Virus record (IMG/VR): IMGVR_UViG_3300042542_001271 | Span: 1 to 26,744 of that record | Direction: 5' to 3' (one strand) | DNA length: 26,744 nucleotides | Source of the DNA: a virus | Part shown: one piece after another, positions 1-24,178 of the stretch | How positions within the stretch are numbered: the first letter of the stretch is position 1 | How the letters are laid out: the number at the start of each line of letters is the position of its first letter | Position numbers and translations under genes: made by a program | The notes under the pieces: model-generated | The model's input: the letters and a program-made list of their open reading frames with translations, nothing else | What the model was told of the DNA's origin: nothing | Database searches by the model: none

Positions 1-1004
1 TGGACGAGGCCCACCACACCACAGCTGGAACGTGGGCGGCAGTGGTGGAGCACTTCAACACCGCCAAGCTGCTTGGGGTGACGGCAACGCCGATCCGCGG
101 TGATGGCCGCGGCCTCGGCGAGCATTACCAGGCCATGGTTGAAGGCCCTAGCGCGCAGTGGTTGACCGATAACGGCTACCTGGCGGCTGCCCGGGTGCTG
201 GCACCGCCGGGCTTCAGCGCTGCCGGGATGCGCAAGCGAATGGGTGACTTCGACCAGCGCGATGCGGAGCAGCAGGTGCGGGCAATCCATGGCGACTGCG
301 TGAGCCACTACCGGCAGCACCTGAGCGGCCAGACCGCCATCGCCTTCTGCTGCAGCGTGGCGCATGCTGAGGCGGTGGCGGCATTGTTTAATGCCAGCGG
401 CATTGCTGCCGCCAGCATCGACGGCACCATGGATGCCGTCACCAGGCGCCACCTGCTGAAACAGCTGGGCGCTAACAAGATCAAGATACTGACTTCCTGC
501 GCGCTAATCGGTGAAGGCGTGGACGTGCCAAGCGTGGGCGGCTGCATTCTGCTGCGCCCCACGGCCAGCGTGGGGCTGCATCTGCAGATGATCGGCCGCT
601 GCCTGCGGCCATCCGGCAACAAGGTGGCTGTGGTGCTCGACCATGTAGGCAACTGCCTGCGGCTGGGCCACCACCTGGAGCCGCGCGAGTGGACACTGGA
701 GGGACTGAAGAAACAAGACCGCGAGAAGGCGCCATCGGTCAAGGTGTGCCCGAAGTGCTACGCCGCAATGGCCAGCCAGGCGCGGGTCTGCGGCGAGTGC
801 GGGCATACGTTTGCCGCTGAGGTGCGCGAGCTAGAGCAGGTGGATGGGCAACTGGTGGAAATGGCCGCCCGCCAACGCAAGCGCCAGCAAGGCACCGCGC
901 AGAGCCTCGACGACCTGATCGCATTAGGGCAGCGCAGGGGGTACAAGAATCCAGCGGCATGGGCCAAGTACGTCATGTATGGACGATCCCTGAAGGGTCG
1001 TTAA
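1..1004 (+). CDS. DEAH-box superfamily 2 helicase, C-terminal part (5' truncated by window edge)
   Basis: The reading frame is open from the first bases, so the gene begins upstream of the window. A GTG at 42 is not the true start, because the Walker B box D-E-A-H is read in the same frame from position 3. Motif III-like V-T-A-T-P-I follows, and the helicase C domain carries motif V (LTSCALIGEGVDVP) and motif VI (QMIGRCLRP, with the arginine finger). This is the layout of an SF2 RecQ/UvrB/RapA-like DNA helicase or translocase, which uses ATP to unwind or remodel DNA in the cytoplasm. The C terminus adds a putative four-cysteine zinc ribbon (CPKC and CGEC, roughly bases 745-810) and a basic tail. 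In phages such helicases sit beside recombination or replication genes, as here. The Walker A half is outside the window. The family is certain; the precise role (replication or recombination) is inferred. Confidence 0.9.
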   Translation, partial: DEAHHTTAGTWAAVVEHFNTAKLLGVTATPIRGDGRGLGEHYQAMVEGPSAQWLTDNGYLAAARVLAPPGFSAAGMRKRMGDFDQRDAEQQVRAIHGDCVSHYRQHLSGQTAIAFCCSVAHAEAVAALFNASGIAAASIDGTMDAVTRRHLLKQLGANKIKILTSCALIGEGVDVPSVGGCILLRPTASVGLHLQMIGRCLRPSGNKVAVVLDHVGNCLRLGHHLEPREWTLEGLKKQDREKAPSVKVCPKCYAAMASQARVCGECGHTFAAEVRELEQVDGQLVEMAARQRKRQQGTAQSLDDLIALGQRRGYKNPAAWAKYVMYGRSLKGR

Positions 1005-1030
1005 TCGGTTACAATAACGTGAGTCACCTT

Positions 1031-1588
1031 ATGGACATGGAAGAAACTTGGGCTCAGATCAAAGGCTTTGAAGGCATTTACGAGGTCTCAACGCTTGGCC
1101 AAATCAGAAGCCTTGACAGGCCGCAACGCGTCAGAGGCAATGGCATTTCACTTCAAAAGGGTCAAACCCTTAAGCAATGGAAGCAAGGTAGCTACATGTA
1201 TTGCGATCTCAGAAAGCCTGGCATTAAACAAAAAGCAAGAGTCCATGTTGTGGTTCTTGAAACTTTTGTTTGCCCTAGACCCAATGGAATGATTGCGTGT
1301 CACAACAATGGTGATCCAACCGACAATCGACTCTGCAATCTTCGATGGGGCACTCACGATGACAACGCCAAGGACAAGATTTTGCATGGAACACATCAAT
1401 ATGGAGAATCCTGCCCAAAATCAAAACTGACGGAAGCACAAGCTATTGCGATTCTTGAATCAACAAAAACCAACAGAGAAACAGCAAAGGACTTTGGGAT
1501 TTGCAGCGCAACTGTAAGCCACATCAAAACTGGCCGCAACTGGCCACATCTTCAAGCCAGACTGGCGAAGAGGCATGGCATCGCTTGA
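1031..1588 (+). CDS. HNH homing-type endonuclease (NUMOD4-HNH-HTH)
   Basis: The product is 185 residues from the ATG at 1031; an upstream in-frame extension to 959 overlaps the helicase and was not used. The N terminus (about 5-28, WAQIKGFEGIYEVS..G.IRSL) is a NUMOD4 motif. The nuclease core (about 90-115) reads A-C-H-N-N-G-D, then D-N-R-x-x-N-L-R-W and D-D-N, the HNH_3 pattern with His91 and Asn99/Asn103. The C terminus (about 136-175) looks like a helix-turn-helix that reads the target site. Such enzymes nick or cut DNA and spread themselves between phage genomes. The gene is visibly richer in A/T and uses different codons from the GC-rich genes on both sides, a sign of transfer. It sits exactly between two replication/recombination genes and ends in a TTGA overlap with the next start. 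Function as a free-standing homing endonuclease is inferred from family and context. Confidence 0.9.
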   Translation: MDMEETWAQIKGFEGIYEVSTLGQIRSLDRPQRVRGNGISLQKGQTLKQWKQGSYMYCDLRKPGIKQKARVHVVVLETFVCPRPNGMIACHNNGDPTDNRLCNLRWGTHDDNAKDKILHGTHQYGESCPKSKLTEAQAIAILESTKTNRETAKDFGICSATVSHIKTGRNWPHLQARLAKRHGIA

Positions 1589-6856: not shown

Positions 6857-7747
6857 ATGTCTGACAGTATCAAGGATTATCTCAACAGTATCGCCAAATA
6901 TCCGTTGTTGACACCTGAGCAGGAGATACAACTTGGCAGGCGGGTAGCACGGCTTAAAGAATTGCAACAACTGGAAAGGCCATTAACAAAAGATGAGCAG
7001 CGCGAGGTGCGCAGTGGCGAACGTGCTCGGCAGCGCTTTATTCAGTCCAACCTGCAACTTGTCGTACATATCGCCCGCAAGTACAACAAACGCCAGAACA
7101 AGACGCTCGAGTTCATGGATCTGATCCAAGAAGGCAACATCGGCCTGTCACGCGCTGTGGACCTGTTCGATCCCACCCGCGGCTACAAGTTCTCGACCTA
7201 CGCCTACTGGTGGATCCGCCAGGGCATCACCAGGGCTCTAATCATTTATGACGGCATAATCAGGCTGCCGATTGGTGTGCACGAGATGCTGTACAAGGTC
7301 AACCGCACCATTCAAGATCTCGGTCATGAGCTAGGCCACGCGCCAAATACCAGTCAGGTGGCAGAGCATCTGGACATGGACCCTAAAGATTTATCCATAC
7401 TGCTGCGGCAGGGTTATCGCGTAACCAGCCTTGACCAGCACATCACAAACTCTGAAAGCCACACCATTGCAGAAACAATTGCAGACCCCGCATACAATCA
7501 AGAGGATGCCGCAACGCATCAAGATATACAAAATATGATGGAATACTTCGCAAAATACCTTGATAAGACAACGCAAACAGTGCTTAAAGCACGCATGATT
7601 TGCCAGCCAATTACTTGGTCAGAACTGGAACGCACGACCGGCATTAGCAAGACACGATTGCACACCATTGAGCAACGTGGCATTGCCCGCCTCCGTATGC
7701 TGATGAGCAATCCGCTGGCAGGCACGCCTCTTGGAACCAACGATTGA
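6857..7747 (+). CDS. Phage-encoded sigma-70-family factor with altered region 4
   Basis: A 296-residue product. Region 1.2 is residues 4-30 (SIKDYLNSIAKYPLLTPEQE). Regions 2.1-2.4 span 57-127 with F-M-D-L-I-Q-E-G-N-I-G-L, F-D-P-T-R-G-Y-K-F-S-T-Y-A-Y-W-W-I-R-Q-G-I-T-R, keeping the Trp pair and the Gln/Thr that read the -10 element. Region 3 is about 135-200, and region 4 about 226-283. It is closest in style to cyanobacterial group 2 factors and lacks region 1.1. After W-W-I-R-Q-G-I-T-R-A-L the usual A-D-Q-x-R-T-I-R is replaced by I-I-Y-D-G-I-I-R. In region 4.2 the canonical S-R-E-R-V-R-Q-I-E reads S-K-T-R-L-H-T-I-E, so the main -35 contacts are changed. It should direct host RNA polymerase to phage promoters. 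It is the last convincing gene of the plus block and faces the late block. Confidence 0.93.
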   Translation: MSDSIKDYLNSIAKYPLLTPEQEIQLGRRVARLKELQQLERPLTKDEQREVRSGERARQRFIQSNLQLVVHIARKYNKRQNKTLEFMDLIQEGNIGLSRAVDLFDPTRGYKFSTYAYWWIRQGITRALIIYDGIIRLPIGVHEMLYKVNRTIQDLGHELGHAPNTSQVAEHLDMDPKDLSILLRQGYRVTSLDQHITNSESHTIAETIADPAYNQEDAATHQDIQNMMEYFAKYLDKTTQTVLKARMICQPITWSELERTTGISKTRLHTIEQRGIARLRMLMSNPLAGTPLGTND

Positions 7748-7904
7748 AAAATACGGCGATGTATGGCGCGTTTGTCTAAATGGCATGTGCAAAGATCATG
7801 TGCAAGATTGGCAAGCATTTATTTTTTATCATCAGATGTTGAATCAATCAACCAGTCCTGAATCTTTAGCACGCGATCAACAGTCCATGACTCCTGACGG
7901 CTAA
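7731..7904 (+). CDS. Candidate 57-residue gene in the convergent junction (antisense to the HNH gene)
   Basis: An open frame follows the stop at 7704-7706. A TTG at 7731, inside the sigma 3' end, gives M-E-P-T-I-E-K-Y-G-D-V-W-R-V-C-L-N-G, then H-V-Q-D-W-Q-A-F-I-F-Y-H-Q-M-L. This reads like a compact alpha/beta domain with several Trp and aromatic residues, and from memory resembles a small protein seen in cyanophages. The last third overlaps the end of the minus-strand HNH gene (7819) and is less protein-like. No strong Shine-Dalgarno is visible. It is either a true last gene of the plus operon or a fossil fragment. Confidence 0.4.
   Translation: MEPTIEKYGDVWRVCLNGMCKDHVQDWQAFIFYHQMLNQSTSPESLARDQQSMTPDG
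7748..7818. other. Convergent junction of the early (+) and late (-) blocks
   Basis: These 71 bases separate the sigma stop from the HNH stop. Transcripts meet here, so a bidirectional terminator would be expected. I see only an A/T-rich run (TTTATTTTTTATC, from 7818) and no convincing stem, so termination may be Rho-dependent or the transcripts may overlap. Confidence 0.5.
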
Positions 7905-8139
7905 ACCACTTTCGCCATTCCTCGCTGCCTTTGCGGCGGTTGCATTCGCGGCAGGCTGGCACCAGATTGCTAGCAACTGTGGCGCCACCTTTATGGCGTG
8001 GTTTGACGTGGTCTAAGGTATCAGCCGGCGCACTGCAGTACGCGCATTCACGACCCCACGCCTCAAAGATTTGCTGTCTAAATTGATGCTTTGCACTGCG
8101 TTTTGATACGAGGTTAGAGCCATCAATCGAGTGATCCAC
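7819..8139 (-). CDS. HNH endonuclease (four-cysteine type)
   Basis: From GTG 8139 the product is 106 residues. The core is C-A-Y-C, then L-D-H-V-K-P-R-H-K-G-G, then N-L-V-P-A-C-R-E-C-N-R-R-K-G-S, the classic HNH (beta-beta-alpha metal) fold with two CxxC pairs for a structural zinc. The open frame continues to an ATG at 8190, but that extension only repeats the neighbouring gene in another frame (68-base overlap), so I prefer the GTG, which overlaps by 17 bases. Such small HNH proteins may help DNA packaging as terminase partners or act as nicking enzymes. Here it is the last gene of the late block, far from any terminase in the window. Nuclease family is certain, role open. Confidence 0.85.
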   Translation of the reverse strand: MDHSIDGSNLVSKRSAKHQFRQQIFEAWGRECAYCSAPADTLDHVKPRHKGGATVASNLVPACRECNRRKGSEEWRKWFSRQESWTVDRVLKIQDWLIDSTSDDKK

Positions 8140-8305
8140 GCAGTTCCGGGATGGGTAGCACCTGAACCGATAGGCCCAGGATGTGATCATTAGACGGCGC
8201 TAACTCAGTGAGTCGCGCAATAAAGTCATCTGATACCGCTTCCGGGTCGTCGCTGTCGCTTTCCACCACGATGGTGTACTCGATCTCAAGGACGTATTGC
8301 CTCAT
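8123..8305 (-). CDS. Small hypothetical protein, 60 aa
   Basis: ATG at 8305 overlaps the metallophosphoesterase stop (ATGA), and its stop overlaps the start of the HNH gene. The sequence begins with a strand-like M-R-Q-Y-V-L-E-I-E-Y-T-I-V-V-E-S, then an acidic D-S-D-D-P-E patch, a helix and another strand (I-L-G-L-S-V-Q-V-L-P). That suggests a small alpha/beta fold. No family recognised. Position in a tight overlap chain supports coding. Confidence 0.65.
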   Translation of the reverse strand: MRQYVLEIEYTIVVESDSDDPEAVSDDFIARLTELAPSNDHILGLSVQVLPIPELRGSLD

Positions 8306-9180: not shown

Positions 9181-10248
9181 CTAATAGTCCCAGCGCGCGC
9201 GTGGCCGGCCAGCGCGGATGCCTAGGTGGATGAATCCCTTCGGCGCGCCATAACCGACGCTGTACGGCCACTCACGATCCACCCATGCTTGCACCTTGTT
9301 GATGTCAGCGCCATCGACGTAGAAGTCAACAGCTCCTACATTGGGCGCGTCGTAAAGATGCTCACTGCCTGATGCGCCACCGACGGCGCGGTTGATTGCA
9401 GCCGGCCTGTACCCGCTGGTGATCGTGATGAACTTGCCGCCAAATGCCGTGCGCACGCGCTCCAAGAATGCTACTAGCTCTGCTGCAGTATCAATTTGAT
9501 GCTGCGCCACAAAACGCCGCGCTGGATCGCCTAGGGCAAACTCACCTAGGGTGAAATGCGCCGACAGCTTGGTGCTGAACGGATCACTGGGTTTCACCTT
9601 GTACGGCAAGGCTTGCGCAGCTTCGCCCCACAGTCGCCCTTCTGCTTGCCGGCGGCGCAGCAACCCAGCCTCGACACTGGTGCCAGGGTTGCGGTAGAGC
9701 AACATCGCTTCTGGGACTGCATCCCAGTCCTTTTCTTTTAGCCGCTTGCTAATCGTTTCAAAACCAGTGGTGCCGTAGAAATCGCTGCCGAGGTTATAGG
9801 CAAAGCTAATCAAGGCAGACTGCTTGTCGCCATTCATGGCATTCCAGAACGGCACCGTAACGCGCAACTTGTTGACAATCCGCTCAATCTCAAGCTCCAG
9901 CAGCTTGCTGGCATCAATGACTGTGAGCTTGTCGCCGCGCTGCACCTTGCGGCCGTCGCTGTACCTAGTGGTGCCATAGCCGATGGTCCAGGGATCGCCG
10001 CCGCTAAGCGGATCTGGGTAGGCCGACAGGTGGCACCCTTCAAACTCTTTGATCAGCTTTGTCGCTGCCTCATAGCTGTGCAGTTTACCGTCTTGGCTCC
10101 AAGTCTGAAACCAAGGCTGACTCCTGTCAAACAGTTCAGGCGCAACCTTTAATAGCTCGGCTTCTAGTTCAGAGATTGCCGCCTGCTGATGCGGCAACCC
10201 CTTCCAGTAGCGAAACAGGTTGCTGGGTTTGATTGGTGATTTACTCAC
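9181..10248 (-). CDS. Two-domain endolysin: GH24 lysozyme plus M15 D-Ala/L-Ala-type peptidase
   Basis: A 355-residue product. Residues about 60-208 form a phage GH24 lysozyme. E-F-E70-G, Y-P-D79 and T88-I-G-Y-G match the E-D-T catalytic triad of T4 lysozyme, with a G-G-D-P-W insertion before the threonine, and R-R-R-Q-A-E-G-R-L-W closes the domain. Residues about 230-355 form an M15 zinc peptidase: S-G-Y-R (278-281), S-E-H297 and V-D308 with the final ligand H341 in F-I-H-L-G. The enzyme would cut both glycan strands and peptide cross-links of peptidoglycan. There is no signal peptide, so it depends on a holin; candidate one-TM proteins lie just upstream. The N-terminal 55 residues are a helical region of unknown role. 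Confidence 0.9.
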   Translation of the reverse strand: MSKSPIKPSNLFRYWKGLPHQQAAISELEAELLKVAPELFDRSQPWFQTWSQDGKLHSYEAATKLIKEFEGCHLSAYPDPLSGGDPWTIGYGTTRYSDGRKVQRGDKLTVIDASKLLELEIERIVNKLRVTVPFWNAMNGDKQSALISFAYNLGSDFYGTTGFETISKRLKEKDWDAVPEAMLLYRNPGTSVEAGLLRRRQAEGRLWGEAAQALPYKVKPSDPFSTKLSAHFTLGEFALGDPARRFVAQHQIDTAAELVAFLERVRTAFGGKFITITSGYRPAAINRAVGGASGSEHLYDAPNVGAVDFYVDGADINKVQAWVDREWPYSVGYGAPKGFIHLGIRAGRPRARWDY

Positions 10249-11124: not shown

Positions 11125-14100
11125 TTACCAAGAAGAAATGGCTGTGCGTCGCCACGTATTTGTGGCAGTGCAAACGTAAATATAGTTGGCATCCCAGCAG
11201 ATTTCACCGGCGGTGCCAGTGGCGGTTGCTGATGCTGGAGTACGGGCAGTGCGCAAGCGAACGGTGTCAGAGTTTACATCTAACAGCGTGGTAGGACTAC
11301 TAATCCCAATCCCCACGCGACCTGATCCATCGACACAAAACTGAGTATCCCAAGTAGTTCCACCAGCAAATTGCCTAATAGCAAAAGTTCGGCTATCGGT
11401 ATTAACACTATTTGTTGCACCCGAGGAAAGGTTTCCACTTCCTTTATCAATAGAAAACCCCCAAAAAGACCTGATATGACAGTCACCAGCGTTATTTTGA
11501 GCTATGCCATTTACACCTATTCCTATAGATGTTGAATTAATTTGCGCAGCAGTTAACCCAGGGCTAGCGATGGCTGCTTCCACACCATTACTTACGCTTG
11601 AAGTATCTGGACCGGAGACAACTTGAAGCAGTTTTGTGGGGCTACTCGTCCCAATCCCCACGTTGCCGGAGCTGTCGATGCGCATGGCTTCAGTGCCGCC
11701 TTCAACAAAGGCCAGCGTGTCTGCGCCAGGGCTGTAGATGCCGGTGTTGGTATCGCCGGTAAAGGTGATGGTCGGCGCGCCAGCGGTGCCGAGTGCAGCG
11801 CTGAATAGGCCAGTTGTGGCGACTGTTTGGCTGCCAAAGTCGGGGTTGATTTTGGTGCCGGCAATCGCCGCAGATGCGTTGACATCGGCATTGACAATGC
11901 TGGCGTTACCGCTGACCAGTACAGTGCCGGTTTGGTTTGGCAGTGTAATTGTGCGGTCAGCCGTTGGATCGGCAACTGTCAGCGTGGTTTCGTTGCCATC
12001 GCTGGAGCTGCCTTCAAACACCAAGGTGCCTGCGCTGCCGATCAGCAACTCACCAGTAACAGTGCCACCGGCTGCAGGTAGCGCCAGTGCAGCCAAGTCG
12101 TAGGCGCTCTTGACTGCCGTGGGAGTAGCGGCGAGAACGCTGCTAGTAGTGCTGGTGCTGTCGCTGAGTTGGACGATGCCATCGACGCTGGTAGTGGCAG
12201 CGCGAAGAGTTAATGCTGGTGTAGTAGTGGCCGTAGCAACAGTCAGTGCAGCAGTGCTGCTGGTGACGGTGGTGACAGTGCCAACAAAATCAGCGCCGTA
12301 TTCCAAGCCAGTAGCAGTGGCGCTATTGGCGCGTAGTACTTGGCCATTAGTGCCGACCGGTAGCTTGGTAAGCGTGGTTGCCGCACTTGCAACTAGCAGG
12401 TCGCCTTTGGTGTAGCTAGCTACATTGGTACCACCTCGCGCTACAGCCAGTGTGCCGCTAGTGATGTTGTCGGCGTTGCGGCATTCAGTGCTAACTTCTT
12501 GGATTGCAGTTTGAACGTTAGTAGCTGCAATATCACCAGCCGGCACAAAGCTAACATTAGATGCTGCAATAGCACCGGCGCCTGCTGATACGTCAATTTC
12601 TACCCATTGCGGGAGAGTAGTGCTATACACCGACAGCAGCAAGTCGGGTGGAGCTAGCGTCCCCGCAGGCGCATTGCCGGAGGTGATTGTGCCGCCTTCG
12701 CTGACGACAAAGTAATGCTTGTTGTTCCCTAGCGTTGGTGCAGGTAGTGCGGCATTAACTACAAAGCCAGCAGCAACGCCTTCAGGCGTAAGACTTTGTA
12801 TTTTGCCAACGCCGGCTGGGGTACTGGCATCAAACGTGCCGGCTAGAACAATTTGCCCGGCTGAGATGCCGATTGGCACCCAGACGTTACCGTCCCACAT
12901 GTAGAACGAGCGGTCTAGTGAGTTCAGGTGTAGTTGACCTGTAAACGTTGCCGCCGGGAACTCCGCACCTATTGATGCTGTTGAGTAGTCAGCCATTTTG
13001 GCAATGGTGACCGCTGCATCAGCCAACCGAGCAGTTGGCAGTGCGCCTGTGGTGATCTTGGCAGCATCTAGGCTAGGAATATCCGAGGCTTCCAGTAGCT
13101 GGCCCTGACTGACGTGGCCTTGTGCGTCCACCACCAATCGGGTGTAGGTGCCAGGAGTGACGGTGTTGCTGTGGTTCAAGACGCCAGCATTAACAAGAAG
13201 GCCCGTACCTGGCTGCACAATGCCCTTGCTGCTAGCTGTAGCGTCTGGCAGGTCCGCAGGCGTTAATGCGCGGAATGTAGGTGCAGCGTTAACGCCACTG
13301 GTGGGGCCTACGAAAACCGCGTTTGCCGCCTGCGTGTCAAGCGTGGTTGTGATATTAGCGGTGTGATTATCGGGGTAGGCAACTGCAAAGTTCAGCGGTG
13401 TGGTGTCACTGAAGTTGATGGCATTGAGCGCAGCCTGCCTAATCCAAGCGCTACCGTTCCAGACGTATTTGACGCTGGTATTGGTGTCAAACCAAAGCTG
13501 GCCTTCATAGGCGCCGCTGCCCACGGGGGTGCCAGCTTGCACAATTGTGGTGCTATCGGCAGCGAGTTTGGCGGCGGTGATGGCGCCATCAAGTACCTTG
13601 CTGGTGGTGACGGCGTTAGTGGCGATGGCCGCTTCACCGAGGCCGGCCGCATCAATCTTGTCGGTGGTGATAGCACCAGTGGCTAGTTTGGCGTTTGTAA
13701 TAGCAGAGTCAGCTAGCTTGCCGGTGGTGACATTTAGGTCTGTCAACGCACTGGTGGTTACAGCGTCTACCGCCAGCTTGGCGCTTGTAACACTGGCATT
13801 GCTGAGTTTTGCGCCAGGTACGCTGCCATCGGCAAGGTTAAGCTTGGCGTAAGTAAGGCTGGCGTCGGCAACCTTGGTAACCGTTACAGCAGCAGTGCCG
13901 ATCTTGCTTTCGGTGACTGCACCAGTGGCTAGTTTTGCCTCCGTAACATTGGCGTCGACGATGGCGGCGGTATCAACCGAGTTGCTTGCGAGTTCAGCGG
14001 CTGTCACCGCATCAGCAGCAATCTTGGCGGTAGTAACGGACAGCGCCGCAAGTTTGCCAGTAGTAACGGCAAGGTCTTGAATTTTGGCGGTGGTAACGGA

Positions 14101-14592
14101 ATCAGTTGCCAGCGCTGCGGCTGCCAGTCCAGCAGCATCTACCTTGGCGGTGGTGACGGCGTTGTTAGCCAGCTTGCCAGTGGTAACGGCAAGGTTTTCA
14201 ATGCCAGCAGTGGGTGCCACCACTTGCTGGAAAGCGCTGCCGTCCCACACCTGCAAGTTTTTGCTGGTGCTGTTGACGTAGCCACGGCCTTCAAAGTTAT
14301 TGCTGCCGGGTGCTACCGAGTCGTAAACAATGCTGCTATCGTCGGCCAGTTTTGCTGCTGTGACGGCGTCGTCAGCCAGCGCCGTGGTGCCCAGCTTGGT
14401 GGCGCTGGATTGGTTCAGCTTGATCAGGTCGATGCTGGCGTTGTCGGCTAGGTTGGCGCCAGCTTGAAACAGATCTTTGGCTTCTACTTTTTTGGTGGTA
14501 CTGGCGCCGACGTCAACAATCGGCAGCACGTCATTAGCAGCGAGATCACCCTGGGCAAGCTTCGTGAGCTGCGAAATGCGTTGGTCGGCCAT
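11125..14592 (-). CDS. Long tail fibre protein with many short repeats
   Basis: A 1155-residue product, start ATG 14592 with an AAGGTGA ribosome binding site. The N terminus (about 1-45, M-A-D-Q-R-I-S-Q-L-T) likely attaches it to the tail. Residues about 55-350 are a long run of imperfect 10-18-residue repeats of the form A-V-T-T-A-K-L-A-x-x-A, low in aromatic residues, typical of trimeric fibre shafts. The middle carries I-Q-P-G-T-G-like domains and Gly-rich beta segments. The C-terminal part has two copies of a G-x-V-G-I-G-(T/I)-S-S-P-T-x-L-L motif (near bases 11625-11680 and 11280-11320) and ends with a likely receptor-binding tip. It probably recognises the host surface. Confidence 0.85.
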   Translation of the reverse strand: MADQRISQLTKLAQGDLAANDVLPIVDVGASTTKKVEAKDLFQAGANLADNASIDLIKLNQSSATKLGTTALADDAVTAAKLADDSSIVYDSVAPGSNNFEGRGYVNSTSKNLQVWDGSAFQQVVAPTAGIENLAVTTGKLANNAVTTAKVDAAGLAAAALATDSVTTAKIQDLAVTTGKLAALSVTTAKIAADAVTAAELASNSVDTAAIVDANVTEAKLATGAVTESKIGTAAVTVTKVADASLTYAKLNLADGSVPGAKLSNASVTSAKLAVDAVTTSALTDLNVTTGKLADSAITNAKLATGAITTDKIDAAGLGEAAIATNAVTTSKVLDGAITAAKLAADSTTIVQAGTPVGSGAYEGQLWFDTNTSVKYVWNGSAWIRQAALNAINFSDTTPLNFAVAYPDNHTANITTTLDTQAANAVFVGPTSGVNAAPTFRALTPADLPDATASSKGIVQPGTGLLVNAGVLNHSNTVTPGTYTRLVVDAQGHVSQGQLLEASDIPSLDAAKITTGALPTARLADAAVTIAKMADYSTASIGAEFPAATFTGQLHLNSLDRSFYMWDGNVWVPIGISAGQIVLAGTFDASTPAGVGKIQSLTPEGVAAGFVVNAALPAPTLGNNKHYFVVSEGGTITSGNAPAGTLAPPDLLLSVYSTTLPQWVEIDVSAGAGAIAASNVSFVPAGDIAATNVQTAIQEVSTECRNADNITSGTLAVARGGTNVASYTKGDLLVASAATTLTKLPVGTNGQVLRANSATATGLEYGADFVGTVTTVTSSTAALTVATATTTPALTLRAATTSVDGIVQLSDSTSTTSSVLAATPTAVKSAYDLAALALPAAGGTVTGELLIGSAGTLVFEGSSSDGNETTLTVADPTADRTITLPNQTGTVLVSGNASIVNADVNASAAIAGTKINPDFGSQTVATTGLFSAALGTAGAPTITFTGDTNTGIYSPGADTLAFVEGGTEAMRIDSSGNVGIGTSSPTKLLQVVSGPDTSSVSNGVEAAIASPGLTAAQINSTSIGIGVNGIAQNNAGDCHIRSFWGFSIDKGSGNLSSGATNSVNTDSRTFAIRQFAGGTTWDTQFCVDGSGRVGIGISSPTTLLDVNSDTVRLRTARTPASATATGTAGEICWDANYIYVCTATNTWRRTAISSW
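13540..14430 (-). repeat. Imperfect repeat tract encoding the fibre shaft
   Basis: Within the fibre gene, short units such as A-V-T-T-A-K-(I/L)-A-x-(D/N)-A-V-T recur about twenty times with variable spacing. At base level, words like GTGGTAACGG and CTTGGCGGT recur on the plus strand. Such tracts change length by slippage or recombination. Confidence 0.75.
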
Positions 14593-20142: not shown

Positions 20143-20522
20143 CGGATTTCGCCTATCAACTTGACCGTCACGCTGCTGCGGTCGCGCAAGACGCTGCTAA
20201 CGCTAGGCGGCTCGGCGTACAGCCACTCAATGCCAGTAGGGTTCTGGGCACGGTTGCGCAAGTCAGCGCTGTACCCGGCAAACACCGTTGCAGGCAAGGT
20301 AAAGCCAAGTGTGCCGCCGCCTTGGGTGTTGTAATGGTCGATGATCGTGTTGACCGTGGTTTCTGGTACGTTGTCGAAACGCAGATCCAATGTGTGGCCG
20401 AATGGGCGGTTGCCAAAACTGCGGCGCAGCGTGGCACCAGACATGGCTCGATACGTTTTGATTGGGTACTGCCCCAGTTGGAAATTGCGAGCCGTTGGTG
20501 TTAGCGCGGGAAAATCAGCCAT
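20139..20522 (-). CDS. Minor tail protein, lambda gpM-like, 127 aa
   Basis: ATG 20522 overlaps the tape measure stop (ATGA-type overlap) and its own stop overlaps the L-like gene. The protein opens M-A-D-F-P-A-L-T-P-T-A-R-N-F-Q-L-G-Q-Y-P and carries R-S-F-G-N-R-P-F-G-H-T-L-D-L-R-F, a beta-barrel type pattern of distal tail (Dit/gpM) proteins. It would form a ring at the end of the tape measure, to which L and J attach. Named by gene order and fold pattern only. Confidence 0.7.
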   Translation of the reverse strand: MADFPALTPTARNFQLGQYPIKTYRAMSGATLRRSFGNRPFGHTLDLRFDNVPETTVNTIIDHYNTQGGGTLGFTLPATVFAGYSADLRNRAQNPTGIEWLYAEPPSVSSVLRDRSSVTVKLIGEIR

Positions 20523-22897
20523 TAGACGCCAATCCTCCGACGGGTGGAACTGCTGTTCTGGATGCGGTCAAGGGTCATTGTCATGCCACGGCTGGCGCCA
20601 TCGCGTGTGGCTTGGCGGCGGGTCTCGGCCATGGCTGCTTCAAGCTGGTCGCGGCTGACATATTCCACACCGCCGATACTGGTGGTCTCGAAGCTCATAT
20701 TAAGCACAGGTGAGTTGCTGGCGCCGCCGCCTTGGTTGTTCATCGCAGAGCGTAGGTCGTTGTTAGACATCACGCCGCCGTTGCTGCTAGGCACAAACAA
20801 CTCGGGGCCACGCTCGCCTACCAGATAGGGTGTGCCGCCTGCAGTTGGGCCGCCGTTAGCACGGTAGCCAAAACCTCGAGCAAGAAAAGACAATATGCCT
20901 TGAGGATTGTCCGCACCGCCTCCTAGTGCACCAAGCGCTTGGGCTATACCGTACATGATGAGCATATTTCCAATTGTTGCCAGTAATTTGCGGCCAATAT
21001 CTCCTAATGCTTCGCCAAGTGTTTTAGTGCTATCAGTGACTGCATCAATAGCGGAAGAAAACGCGCCAGCAACGCTGCTAGACATCCTCTCAAAAATTTC
21101 TTCATTTTTGCTGCTTTCATTTTTTATTTGTTCGGTGGTCATTAGTATCTCTTTCAGTCGATTTAGCTGCGCCTCGGTAAGGTTTAATTTCGTAATCGCA
21201 TCAGATTTAAGTTGTTGATCAATTTGCAATTCAGCGCGCTTTAGCGGATCTTTTTGGCGTGCCAGTTCTAATTCATATTCTGCACTGCTTAGCAGTTCAT
21301 TAACTGCCAAAAGGCGTTCGGTTTCAGTCTTTGCTGCTTGCCTGTTTTGAGCCTCTGCCTTACCAAGCTGCTCAAGTAAGATTTGATCAATCTCGCGTTC
21401 AAGATTAACTCGGGCGGATTTCAGGTCTGTGGTTTGTTCGTCAAAAGCCAATGCGGCATACATTTTATCATTGGAGCTTGCAATAATTTGAGCGCGTACC
21501 TGTTCCCTGCCCGTAATCGTCGCGTCAATAGCATCAATTTGGTACTTAATATTCAACAACTTGGATGTTGCTTCAACAATACGTTGCGCTTGCTCGGCAT
21601 TTGGCTGCTGCGCCGCAACATTTAAGTTGGCTTGAGTTGCGACTTGCAGTCGCGCTTGGGCTTCACGTAATTTGCGTTGAATATCGCCACCAAGTAAATC
21701 ATCAACAGATAATTGCCTTCTTGCTTTTGGTTCTTCAGTCAAAAGAGCCGGAACATCAGTAGGGGTTTGAGTTTGTTTCTGACTTTTCTTTAACGTGTCA
21801 AGAGCATTTTGTAGCTGTTGAACTTTTTGCTGTGAAGCCCTTTGGATTGCTTCCGCCAGTGACTGTTCCTGCTGCGTAACACCAAATGGACGCGATGCGT
21901 TGATATTGCTTAGAACATTGGCGACTGCAGTTTGATTGGTTTTGATTTCATTTGCGACCTGCTGAATGCCGGATGCGCCTAAACCCTGCGTCGAAATGCC
22001 TTGCGTTAAAGCGAGTATCTTTTTTAGGTCATCAACTGTATTACCCGGCAAGACAAGGGCAGTTCTAAGCTCTATTGCTTGTTTTGCAAAACCACCGGCA
22101 AGAACATTGCCAATAGCATTAACAGCGCCGATAGCAAGATTTAAGACATTTTTTAATGCCGGTGCAAGTTTTGTACCAATGTCACGCGCAAGACTTTCAA
22201 TACCATCCCGCAAAGTGCTGAATTTGCCCGCCAACGTATCGCTTTGGGCAATAGCACCATTGGCGTATTTGCCGCCAGCATTCGTCAGACGTGTAATTGC
22301 AACTTCAACTGCCTCTGCGCTGATGCGGCCTTTGCTTAAAGCCTTCTGGAACTCCTCTCCAGACAGGCCATACATCTTGCGCAATTCTTCCTGCAGCGCT
22401 ACGCCACGCTCTTGGAACTGCAGCAGCTCTTCACCCTGCAACCTGCCCTTGGCCTGTACCTGGCCATAGGCAGTCACCAAACCTTGCAGTTCGGCCCCCG
22501 TGGCGCCGCTTACGTCGGCAAGCCTCTTGGTGGTTTCGACGACATTGTTTGCCTCAACGCCAAATGCCTGCAGCCGTTTTGCCGCATCAATTAACTCAGT
22601 GCTGGTAAACGGTGTGACCGCACCAAGCTGCTGCAGTTCTTTAATAATTTGTCCAGCTTTTTCCGCGCTACCAGTTAATACCTGCAGGCTGCGCGTTTGA
22701 GTTTCCAGTTCTGCAGTCTTGGCAAAAATAAACTTAATCGCTTGAATACCGCCAAATGCAACTGCTAACTTTCCAACAGCGGCGCCAAGTCTGTCAAAGC
22801 CACGTTCTGTTTGCTGCGCCTGTGACTGAACGTCACGCAGCTTCGAGACGGCAGCGCGGCTGTCAACGTTAATAGCAACGTTTGCTACGACAGACAC
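20522..22897 (-). CDS. Tail tape measure protein
   Basis: A 791-residue, mostly helical product. The start has the tape-measure N-terminal pattern (V-D-S-R-A-A-V-S-K-L-R-D-V-Q) and the core T-R-S-L-Q-V-L-T-G-S and V-T-P-F-T-S-T-E-L-I-D-A-A-K-R-L-Q-A-F-G blocks characteristic of the family. Long coiled coils lie at about 360-560, and a hydrophobic segment (L-L-A-T-I-G-N-M-L-I-M-Y-G-I-A-Q-A-L-G-A-L) sits at about 645-670, typical for the part inserted in the membrane at DNA ejection. The length sets tail length: at about 1.5 angstrom per residue, near 120 nm. It follows the chaperone genes. It is the most divergent-looking of the tail genes, with A/T-rich patches (21050-21800). Confidence 0.92.
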   Translation of the reverse strand: MSVVANVAINVDSRAAVSKLRDVQSQAQQTERGFDRLGAAVGKLAVAFGGIQAIKFIFAKTAELETQTRSLQVLTGSAEKAGQIIKELQQLGAVTPFTSTELIDAAKRLQAFGVEANNVVETTKRLADVSGATGAELQGLVTAYGQVQAKGRLQGEELLQFQERGVALQEELRKMYGLSGEEFQKALSKGRISAEAVEVAITRLTNAGGKYANGAIAQSDTLAGKFSTLRDGIESLARDIGTKLAPALKNVLNLAIGAVNAIGNVLAGGFAKQAIELRTALVLPGNTVDDLKKILALTQGISTQGLGASGIQQVANEIKTNQTAVANVLSNINASRPFGVTQQEQSLAEAIQRASQQKVQQLQNALDTLKKSQKQTQTPTDVPALLTEEPKARRQLSVDDLLGGDIQRKLREAQARLQVATQANLNVAAQQPNAEQAQRIVEATSKLLNIKYQIDAIDATITGREQVRAQIIASSNDKMYAALAFDEQTTDLKSARVNLEREIDQILLEQLGKAEAQNRQAAKTETERLLAVNELLSSAEYELELARQKDPLKRAELQIDQQLKSDAITKLNLTEAQLNRLKEILMTTEQIKNESSKNEEIFERMSSSVAGAFSSAIDAVTDSTKTLGEALGDIGRKLLATIGNMLIMYGIAQALGALGGGADNPQGILSFLARGFGYRANGGPTAGGTPYLVGERGPELFVPSSNGGVMSNNDLRSAMNNQGGGASNSPVLNMSFETTSIGGVEYVSRDQLEAAMAETRRQATRDGASRGMTMTLDRIQNSSSTRRRIGV

Positions 22898-22900
22898 GGC

Positions 22901-23089
22901 CTACCGTCGATGTTGCTTCATTCTACGTTCTTGCTCTTCATTGAGCACGTCGAAATAAGCTGACCATAAAAGCAGTTCTTCTATGGTCAGCTCTGACTTG
23001 AGCCGTGTCAAGGTGTAGCCCAATTCTTTGGCTACACCTAGTTGCAGCATCAGCAGGTTATCGCGCTTTAGCTCGGCCTTTAGGGCTTT
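22901..23089 (-). CDS. Tail assembly chaperone, T part (expressed as G-T fusion by frameshift)
   Basis: A 62-codon frame with no good own start, opening right after a TGA at 23092-23090 and overlapping the end of the G gene by 32 bases. It is in the +1 frame relative to G. The peptide (A-K-E-L-G-Y-T-L-T-R-L-K-S-E-L-T-I-E-E-L-L-L-W-S-A-Y) is typical of the T partner in lambda-like tails. The fusion with G would be 172 residues. A second route is re-initiation at ATG 23050, 7 bases after the G stop, giving 49 residues. Lies between G and the tape measure, exactly where T belongs. Confidence 0.75.
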   Translation of the reverse strand, partial: KALKAELKRDNLLMLQLGVAKELGYTLTRLKSELTIEELLLWSAYFDVLNEEQERRMKQHRR

Positions 23090-23420
23090 TCATGTCTACC
23101 TCTTCGGTAGCCTCCGGGTCGGTAATGATTGCAAGCATCATGGCCTGCAGGTCACTATCGAGCACTTCGTTTTTCAGCTCAGCAATTTCGCCGGCTTGAA
23201 ACAACCGCTGGCCTGCATCGTCCACTGCTTTGGTAATAAGCAGGTTGAGAGCAAAGCCGTTGGTTTCATCACCACCGGGCATCTTCTGCGCCCGTTCACG
23301 TTCGGCCATGGTTAGCGGCGTCGCGTAAAATTCAAACTCGCTGCCGTCATAAAGAACGACAGTCCGCTTGGAGGGCGTTAGATTAGCTGCTTTTTTAAGG
23401 CGTGCAAGTGCAGTAGACAT
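23058..23420 (-). CDS. Tail assembly chaperone, G part
   Basis: A 120-residue protein, ATG 23420 sharing a base with the stop of the major tail protein. It has the usual features of gpG-like chaperones: a basic N terminus, V-V-L-Y-D-G-S-E-F-E-F-Y, P-L-T-M-A-E-R-E-R-A-Q-K and a helical end. These proteins coat the tape measure during tube assembly. It ends M-K-S-P-K-G-R-A-K-A-R, and the DNA of this last part contains three Lys AAA codons that can slip +1. The T part is in the +1 frame over the same region. Located between the tube and tape measure genes, as in lambda. Confidence 0.85.
   Translation of the reverse strand: MSTALARLKKAANLTPSKRTVVLYDGSEFEFYATPLTMAERERAQKMPGGDETNGFALNLLITKAVDDAGQRLFQAGEIAELKNEVLDSDLQAMMLAIITDPEATEEVDMKSPKGRAKAR
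23067..23090 (-). promoter_or_regulatory. Candidate +1 ribosomal frameshift window
   Basis: In the last codons of G, three AAA codons can slip one base forward and re-pair. AAA-A (23090-23087) becomes AAA, and AAA-G (23081-23078 and 23069-23066) becomes AAG, all read by tRNA-Lys. The window is bounded by the TGA of the +1 frame (23092-23090) and the TAA of G (23060-23058). No -1 shift reaches the T frame. Confidence 0.6.
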
Positions 23421-24178
23421 TAGGCGCTCGTGCTGAAGTCAAACGATGGCGCACCGGTCGGGCGGAATGTGATTTCCACCTGTTGCGCATCGTCTGGGTT
23501 GATGTTGAGGGTAGCAGTAAGCAGCACGGCGTCCATGCTGATGCTGCGACTGAGGGCCTCGGTTGCCTGCAGATCGGTATAAAGCTTGAATGCGCAACCG
23601 ACCTGCTGACGTTGCAGCACGTCTTCAACCATGCGGTTGGAGAGTGCAGCATCTTCGTTGGTCACGTAGACGGTAGCAGTACCGCTGCCATCTGCAAAGC
23701 CAGGAATGTAAGCCCGGAACGGAGCATACTGACCAGCGGTCTGGCCGATGGTGGTGACGTCAATTTCAGCGCGGTTGACCTCAAAAGACCAAGACTGCAC
23801 CTGCCCAACAGCGGCGAATGCTGCGTAGTAAACCTCAAATTCGTTGGGTGCTACGGCAGTGCCATCATCGGTGATCGCAAGGATGGTGCCGCCTAGCGTG
23901 CCTGAAACGGTCAGTGCGCCAGTGGCTGCCGTGTAGGTCAACACAAAATAGGTAGTGGCCGCATCGATTGGCGAAGGCAATGTGCCAGTGCCGGATCCAC
24001 CGGTTTGGCTGTTGATGACGCGGAACCTAACCGGGTCGCCGGGCTTGAAGTTCAGGTATGGCTGAACGGTAATGACATCAGTGCTGGCATTCACGCCAGT
24101 CTCACCGAAGGTGCCAGTAGTGCCGGCGGGTTTGTAGTAAAGTGCGCCGGATGTACCGGACAAAACTGTAACAGCCAT
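23420..24178 (-). CDS. Major tail (tube) protein
   Basis: A 252-residue product. The core at about 128-180 reads V-Q-S-W-S-F-E-V-N-R-A-E-I-D-V-T-T-I, then Y-I-P-G-F-A-D-G-S-G-T-A-T-V-Y-V-T, the family pattern of siphovirus tube proteins. The N-terminal part holds an extra Thr/Gly-rich domain (about 35-110, with P-G-D-P-V-R-F-R-V), likely a surface-exposed insertion. Subunits stack as hexameric rings around the tape measure. The next gene is chaperone G, the usual order. Another tube-fold protein occurs at 15490-15975. Confidence 0.88.
   Translation of the reverse strand: MAVTVLSGTSGALYYKPAGTTGTFGETGVNASTDVITVQPYLNFKPGDPVRFRVINSQTGGSGTGTLPSPIDAATTYFVLTYTAATGALTVSGTLGGTILAITDDGTAVAPNEFEVYYAAFAAVGQVQSWSFEVNRAEIDVTTIGQTAGQYAPFRAYIPGFADGSGTATVYVTNEDAALSNRMVEDVLQRQQVGCAFKLYTDLQATEALSRSISMDAVLLTATLNINPDDAQQVEITFRPTGAPSFDFSTSA

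Follow-up and report, generated by a model that had tools for sequence, protein, structure and literature searches.

A conserved ATG_AAA_AGC site and a probable +1 ribosomal frameshift in the tail chaperone genes G and T of a probable cyanophage

The window, by which we mean the whole 26,744-bp stretch of DNA analysed here, is IMG/VR virus record IMGVR_UViG_3300042542_001271 and is related to Synechococcus siphophages. It raises the question of how T, an open frame that overlaps the end of gene G, comes to be translated. The structural genes lie on the minus strand in the order head closure, neck, tail terminator, major tail protein, G, T and tape measure, and G and T, flanked by the genes for the major tail protein and the tape measure (recognized through phrog_158 and TMP_3, respectively), occupy the place of a lambda-type G/GT pair (Table 1). 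At the DNA level the nearest isolate is KBS-S-2A, a cyanophage of Synechococcus WH7803. This relationship, together with a sigma factor whose nearest counterparts are in KBS-S-2A and S-CBS1, makes a Synechococcus/Cyanobium-type cyanobacterium the probable host. The sigma factor (6857-7747, plus strand) is a phage sigma-70 protein of the group-2 type of cyanobacteria, in which regions 1.2-3 are strong and region 4 scores below the Pfam cut-off. Elsewhere the window encodes a probable endolysin combining phage lysozyme and M15 peptidase domains in a single protein (9181-10248, minus strand), two HNH endonucleases that are likely homing-type, one of them with a NUMOD4 motif (959-1588, plus strand; 7819-8190, minus strand), and a repetitive tail fibre of 1155 aa with numerous degenerate AVTTAKLA-like repeats and one Phage_fiber_2 repeat (11125-14592, minus strand).

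Relative to G, the T frame is +1, or equivalently -2. It is closed by a TGA at 23092-23090, then stays open for 62 codons (23089-22904) up to the TAG at 22903-22901. A slip at the first AAA of the overlap would give a computed G-T fusion of 111 + 61 = 172 aa. The preliminary description of this locus had already placed T in the +1 frame and proposed a 172-residue fusion; its coordinates check, and the length is confirmed for a slip at that first AAA.

Table 1. Coordinates of the G-T region and its neighbours in the window.
Feature	Position	Strand	Remarks
Major tail protein	23420..24178	-	directly upstream of G; phrog_158, 2.8e-10
G, tail assembly chaperone	23058..23420	-	120 aa; ATG 23420, TAA 23060-23058; ORF, phrog matches and AlphaFold model
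Putative slip site ATG_AAA_AGC (E, P and A codons)	23085..23093	-	NTR_AAA_AGN in 225/225; includes +1-frame TGA 23092-23090
Second AAA-G of the preliminary description	23078..23081	-	no conservation as slip site
Third AAA-G of the preliminary description	23066..23069	-	no conservation as slip site
T-frame ATG, proposed re-initiation start	23048..23050	-	not conserved; often CTG/TTG in relatives
T segment after the slip	22901..23086	-	61 codons 23086-22904 plus TAG 22903-22901; conserved +1 frame, phrog_337/phrog_14766/phrog_26456, helical model
Tape measure protein	20522..22897	-	directly downstream of T; Pfam TMP_3, 4e-23

Relatives were gathered from IMG/VR scans and phage records, and loci were scored with small profile HMMs of G and T. 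Both genes were found in 318 loci. Relative to G, T is shifted +1 in 225 of them and -1 in 93, counts that contain some contigs fetched twice; a same-frame fusion occurred in none. Removal of G sequences at least 95% identical left a non-redundant set of 119 +1 loci, made up of 78 in a clade with ATG before the slip codon (the ATG clade, that of the window) and 41 in a second, marine clade with TTR in that place, together with 44 -1 loci. Throughout the 318 loci T is open in a frame other than that of G, overlaps the end of G and is conserved at the protein level, and in the +1 loci both frames are under purifying constraint. A scan of prokaryote genomes with T as query found no relative.

Comparison of these loci establishes the two frames, the position at which the frame changes and the conservation of the slip site. 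All 225 +1 loci carry [ATG/TTG/TTA] AAA AG[C/T/G], or NTR_AAA_AGN, within the G-T overlap. In every one of them T opens exactly at the AAA of this site, because a +1-frame TGA or TAA lies immediately 5' of it. Positions -3 to +5 of the slip show zero variation among the 78 non-redundant ATG-clade loci. Upstream of the slip the variability sits at third positions of G codons (1.34 bits vs 0.75 and 0.66); downstream it sits at third positions of T codons (1.21 bits vs 0.50 and 0.19). The G codon that follows AGC is unconstrained (T, V, A, P, R, G, S or I), and the T residues opposite this free codon are kept (A, L/V/I, K). The slip lysine is encoded by AAA in 78/78 loci of the ATG clade and 41/41 of the marine clade; the remaining conserved lysine columns of G in the ATG clade are AAA/AAG mixtures with 28-94% AAG. 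Of the codons that follow the +1-frame stop and precede the first T-constrained codon, AAA alone can re-pair after a +1 movement. Since it is also invariant, the slip is placed at AAA_A, 23090-23087, inside ATG_AAA_AGC. The residue preceding the lysine is M or L in all 225 loci, in contrast to V, A, P, L or T in the -1 relatives, and it is I in a small third +1 lineage described below, which suggests that the E codon of +1 sites is constrained at the nucleotide level. In-frame AAA-AGY occurs twice in the ~7,900 codons of the window genes, one occurrence being the slip site, against ~5 expected from codon use, a weak hint that it is avoided in these coding genes.

The preliminary description had listed three lysine codons, AAA-A, AAA-G and AAA-G, as sites able to slip, and had suggested comparing them among related phages. 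That comparison favours the first, AAA AGN being invariant in all 225 loci, and speaks against the other two, which are lost in some relatives or lie beyond the stop. The second reads CAA-G in several relatives (L003, L004, L007-L010) and is absent from the marine +1 clade. The third falls past the end of G in most relatives, among them all those in which G ends AAA-GGC-TGA. In 49 of the 119 non-redundant loci the first AAA is followed by no further in-frame AAA-R codon before the G stop. Equal use of the three sites was rejected, since only the first is conserved across relatives.

What kind of proteins are G and T? In the profile searches G matched phrog_20784 (3.5e-33) and phrog_344, a tail assembly chaperone family (0.012), and curated family scores for G and T were weak or below cut-off. 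A Pfam search with the window G gave no match; Phage_TAC_13 (TAC_13) was matched in 10 of 44 relatives, with a best E of 0.002, and scored below cut-off for the KBS-S-2A G. Comparison of the G and T profiles with the sequences of solved structures returned nothing relevant. AlphaFold models were built with sequences from IMG/VR loci only. The model of G (pLDDT 83) had as its first PDB match the HK97 tail assembly chaperone 2ob9 (probability 1.00, E 1.5e-3, TM about 0.5), with no other confident match, and structural comparison thus gives the modelled G a tail assembly chaperone fold. T was modelled as a helical domain (pLDDT 93), and among its weaker fold matches is a protein of Rhodobacter phage RcRhea annotated as a tail assembly chaperone. 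When the fused G-T proteins of the window phage, AG-345-A17 and KBS-S-2A are compared with the 224-aa tail protein profile phrog_14766, the alignments span the junction, which supports the fusion as the functional unit.

Because the two frames and the slip site are conserved, G has the modelled chaperone fold and the gene order is that of lambda, G and T very probably form a lambda-type chaperone pair in which some ribosomes shift +1 at ATG_AAA_AGC by P-site slippage. The site has the conserved E, P and A codons and the good +1 re-pairing, AAA with AAA, of P-site +1 slippage. In a fraction of the ribosomes translating G, with peptidyl-tRNA(Lys) occupying the P site at AAA and the A site, at AGC, still empty, the tRNA-Lys would re-pair with the overlapping AAA one base downstream, GCC (Ala) would enter the A site, and reading would continue in the T frame to yield the 172-aa G-T. 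Ribosomes that do not slip would terminate at the TAA and release the 120-aa G. On the model of lambda, G would coat the tape measure protein and the T part of G-T would recruit the major tail protein. We infer this role in tail assembly, as we do ribosomal slippage as the event, the P-site re-pairing and its efficiency.

The same T frame would be reached by a -2 shift, which is known for the G-T pair of phage Mu (PMC5009743), and frame alone does not tell the two apart. Base pairing favours +1: a -2 movement from AAA would leave the tRNA-Lys mismatched at the first position of UGA or UAA, whereas a +1 movement would bring it to AAA with perfect pairing, and the relatives have no conserved run that would permit -2 re-pairing. 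A backward shift of this kind is very unlikely here. The preliminary description had also raised re-initiation as a rival: ribosomes would terminate at the end of G and start again at the T-frame ATG, ~7 nt downstream of the TAA, so that T would be a protein of its own. Such an ATG does lie shortly past the stop in the window, yet between the slip and the T core an ATG is found in only 25 of 119 loci, and in 60 of 119 there is no ATG, GTG or TTG, leaving the proposal unsupported. The T residues before this ATG, KALKAELKRDN, are moreover conserved though they would be untranslated under re-initiation, and the invariant ATG_AAA_AGC would be left unexplained; the chance that T is made in this way seems slim indeed.

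An altered frame might also arise in the mRNA, by RNA polymerase slippage on the run of A that forms the slip site. Transcription slippage normally needs longer runs, and here the run comprises 4 A in 99 loci and 5 A in 20 of the 119, never more; the conserved E and A codons would again go unexplained, and we regard this route as extremely improbable. Finally, one single-base indel in an assembly, or in a decaying gene, would likewise split a single ORF into two frames, and the preliminary description had named a one-base sequencing error as a possible undoing of the frameshift. The identical +1 arrangement recurs in 225 loci on many independent contigs with both frames under purifying constraint, which rules out such an error and gives a broken ORF a negligible probability.

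Several features that might promote P-site slippage were considered. By the codon use of the window, rarity of the A-site codon does not account for a pause, AGC being the commonest serine codon (47% of Ser codons). A Shine-Dalgarno stimulator was rejected as not conserved: some SD-like tetramer occurs upstream in 29 of 78 ATG-clade loci, and a close one in 0/78. Among the few windows of this clade that were folded downstream of the site, no common RNA shape was evident. All 225 loci have a +1-frame stop immediately before the slip codon, but the third lineage lacks one, and such a stop was rejected as essential.

The preliminary description had contrasted the +1 frame with the usual -1 shift, and the nearest isolates do use -1 in the same gene. 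KBS-S-2A (HQ634187), whose proteins are 67% identical to those of the window in G and 71% in T, has T in the -1 frame, as have its relatives, with sites A_AAA_AAC, A_AAA_AAA or C_CCA_AAA. The classical arrangement, T in the -1 frame with a heptamer X_XXY_YYZ, is thus found in this group and not at the G-T locus of the window, where T is +1. The public record of KBS-S-2A leaves T (HQ634187.1:34107-34274) without annotation, although a -1 shift at A_AAA_AAC would give access to it. Also -1 are Prochlorococcus phage MED4-184 and its relatives, S-H1 and S-2L. The marine +1 clade, which includes the single-cell virus AG-345-A17 (MH327491), has TTR_AAA_AGY. A small third +1 lineage (L408, L409, L410, L411), near S-2L and with G 33-39% identical to that of S-2L, has ATC_AAA_AGC, its AAA_AGC core standing without a directly preceding +1-frame stop. 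The best trees need 2-3 changes of direction, and with ~150 columns and long branches the AU test did not reject a single +1 clade (p 0.37). The predicted shift direction has changed at least once.

The marine clade shows a further signal upstream of its slip site. At -18 to -7 from the slip AAA, GAGGCTAAAGCC (GAG GCT AAA GCC; L084:2828-2839) is invariant at silent sites in the 41 non-redundant loci, the only four-codon run of such invariance in the last ~95 codons of G. Upstream hairpins that adjoin the E site stimulate +1 shifting on 70S ribosomes (PMC6321510). In the marine clade, GGC/GCC pairing is possible within GGCTAAAGCC, and a mini-hairpin GGC-UAAA-GCC near the E site might aid the +1 shift.

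How does the locus compare with known recoding systems? It resembles lambda gpG/gpGT, an arrangement conserved in long-tailed dsDNA phages, in having the major tail and tape measure genes on either side, in a short G with a predicted, rarer G-T made by recoding near the end of G, and in the chaperone fold of the modelled G. Lambda and most of the others slip in tandem by -1, whereas the window virus would shift +1 at a single P-site codon. KBS-S-2A has the same gene pair but with T in the -1 frame. AG-345-A17 is alike in a predicted +1 shift at TTG_AAA_AGC with a +1-frame stop directly 5', and unlike in that its G is ~40% identical, stops one codon past the slip and has extra silent-site conservation upstream. 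Tailed phages are reported to use -1, -2 or +1 shifts for the G-T pair (PMC5009743; PMC8211752). In the same papers the tail chaperone of the haloarchaeal myovirus HSTV-2 is reported as very likely +1 (PMC5009743; PMC8211752); it is compared here by shift direction, and its host is an archaeon. At UCC_UUU_CGU of influenza A PA-X, slippage of the P-site tRNA on a tetranucleotide depends on conserved E and A codons, and a wider class of such sites has been predicted (PMC3498833). PA-X is alike in outline only, as a +1 P-site slip with conserved E and A codons; it is not a homologue, its gene and host are unrelated, and its A-site codon is rare, in contrast to the common AGC here. Bacterial prfB (CUU_UGA) likewise slips +1 at the P site in bacteria (PMC10885494). 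According to the PRFect authors, forward (+1) frameshifts lack an identified general motif (PMC10885494), and among the open-access papers searched we found none reporting on this cyanophage group.

The tail-chaperone function and the class of recoding, including +1 shifts in tail chaperones, are therefore already known. What is new is a defined candidate nine-base E/P/A motif, present in two +1 lineages and represented by its AAA_AGC core in a third, together with the contrast between predicted -1 and +1 shifts among close kin. The frameshifted arrangement explains the missing annotation of T in this group, as in KBS-S-2A. More speculatively, and we hold this as a tentative idea, NTN_AAA_AGY may be a bacterial +1 motif that works without a rare codon, stop or Shine-Dalgarno sequence, and at least three tail-chaperone lineages may have acquired or retained it, with close relatives flipped to -1 heptamers. 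If this is true, frameshift direction would be interchangeable within one gene family and NTN_AAA_AGY would be a specific, predictable +1 signal. The nine-base E/P/A context, which is exceptionless in two +1 lineages, is a candidate +1 motif supplied by evolution, and the +1 lineages beside their -1 sisters with A-run sites offer matched pairs for testing how ribosomes would be sent forward or backward in the same gene.
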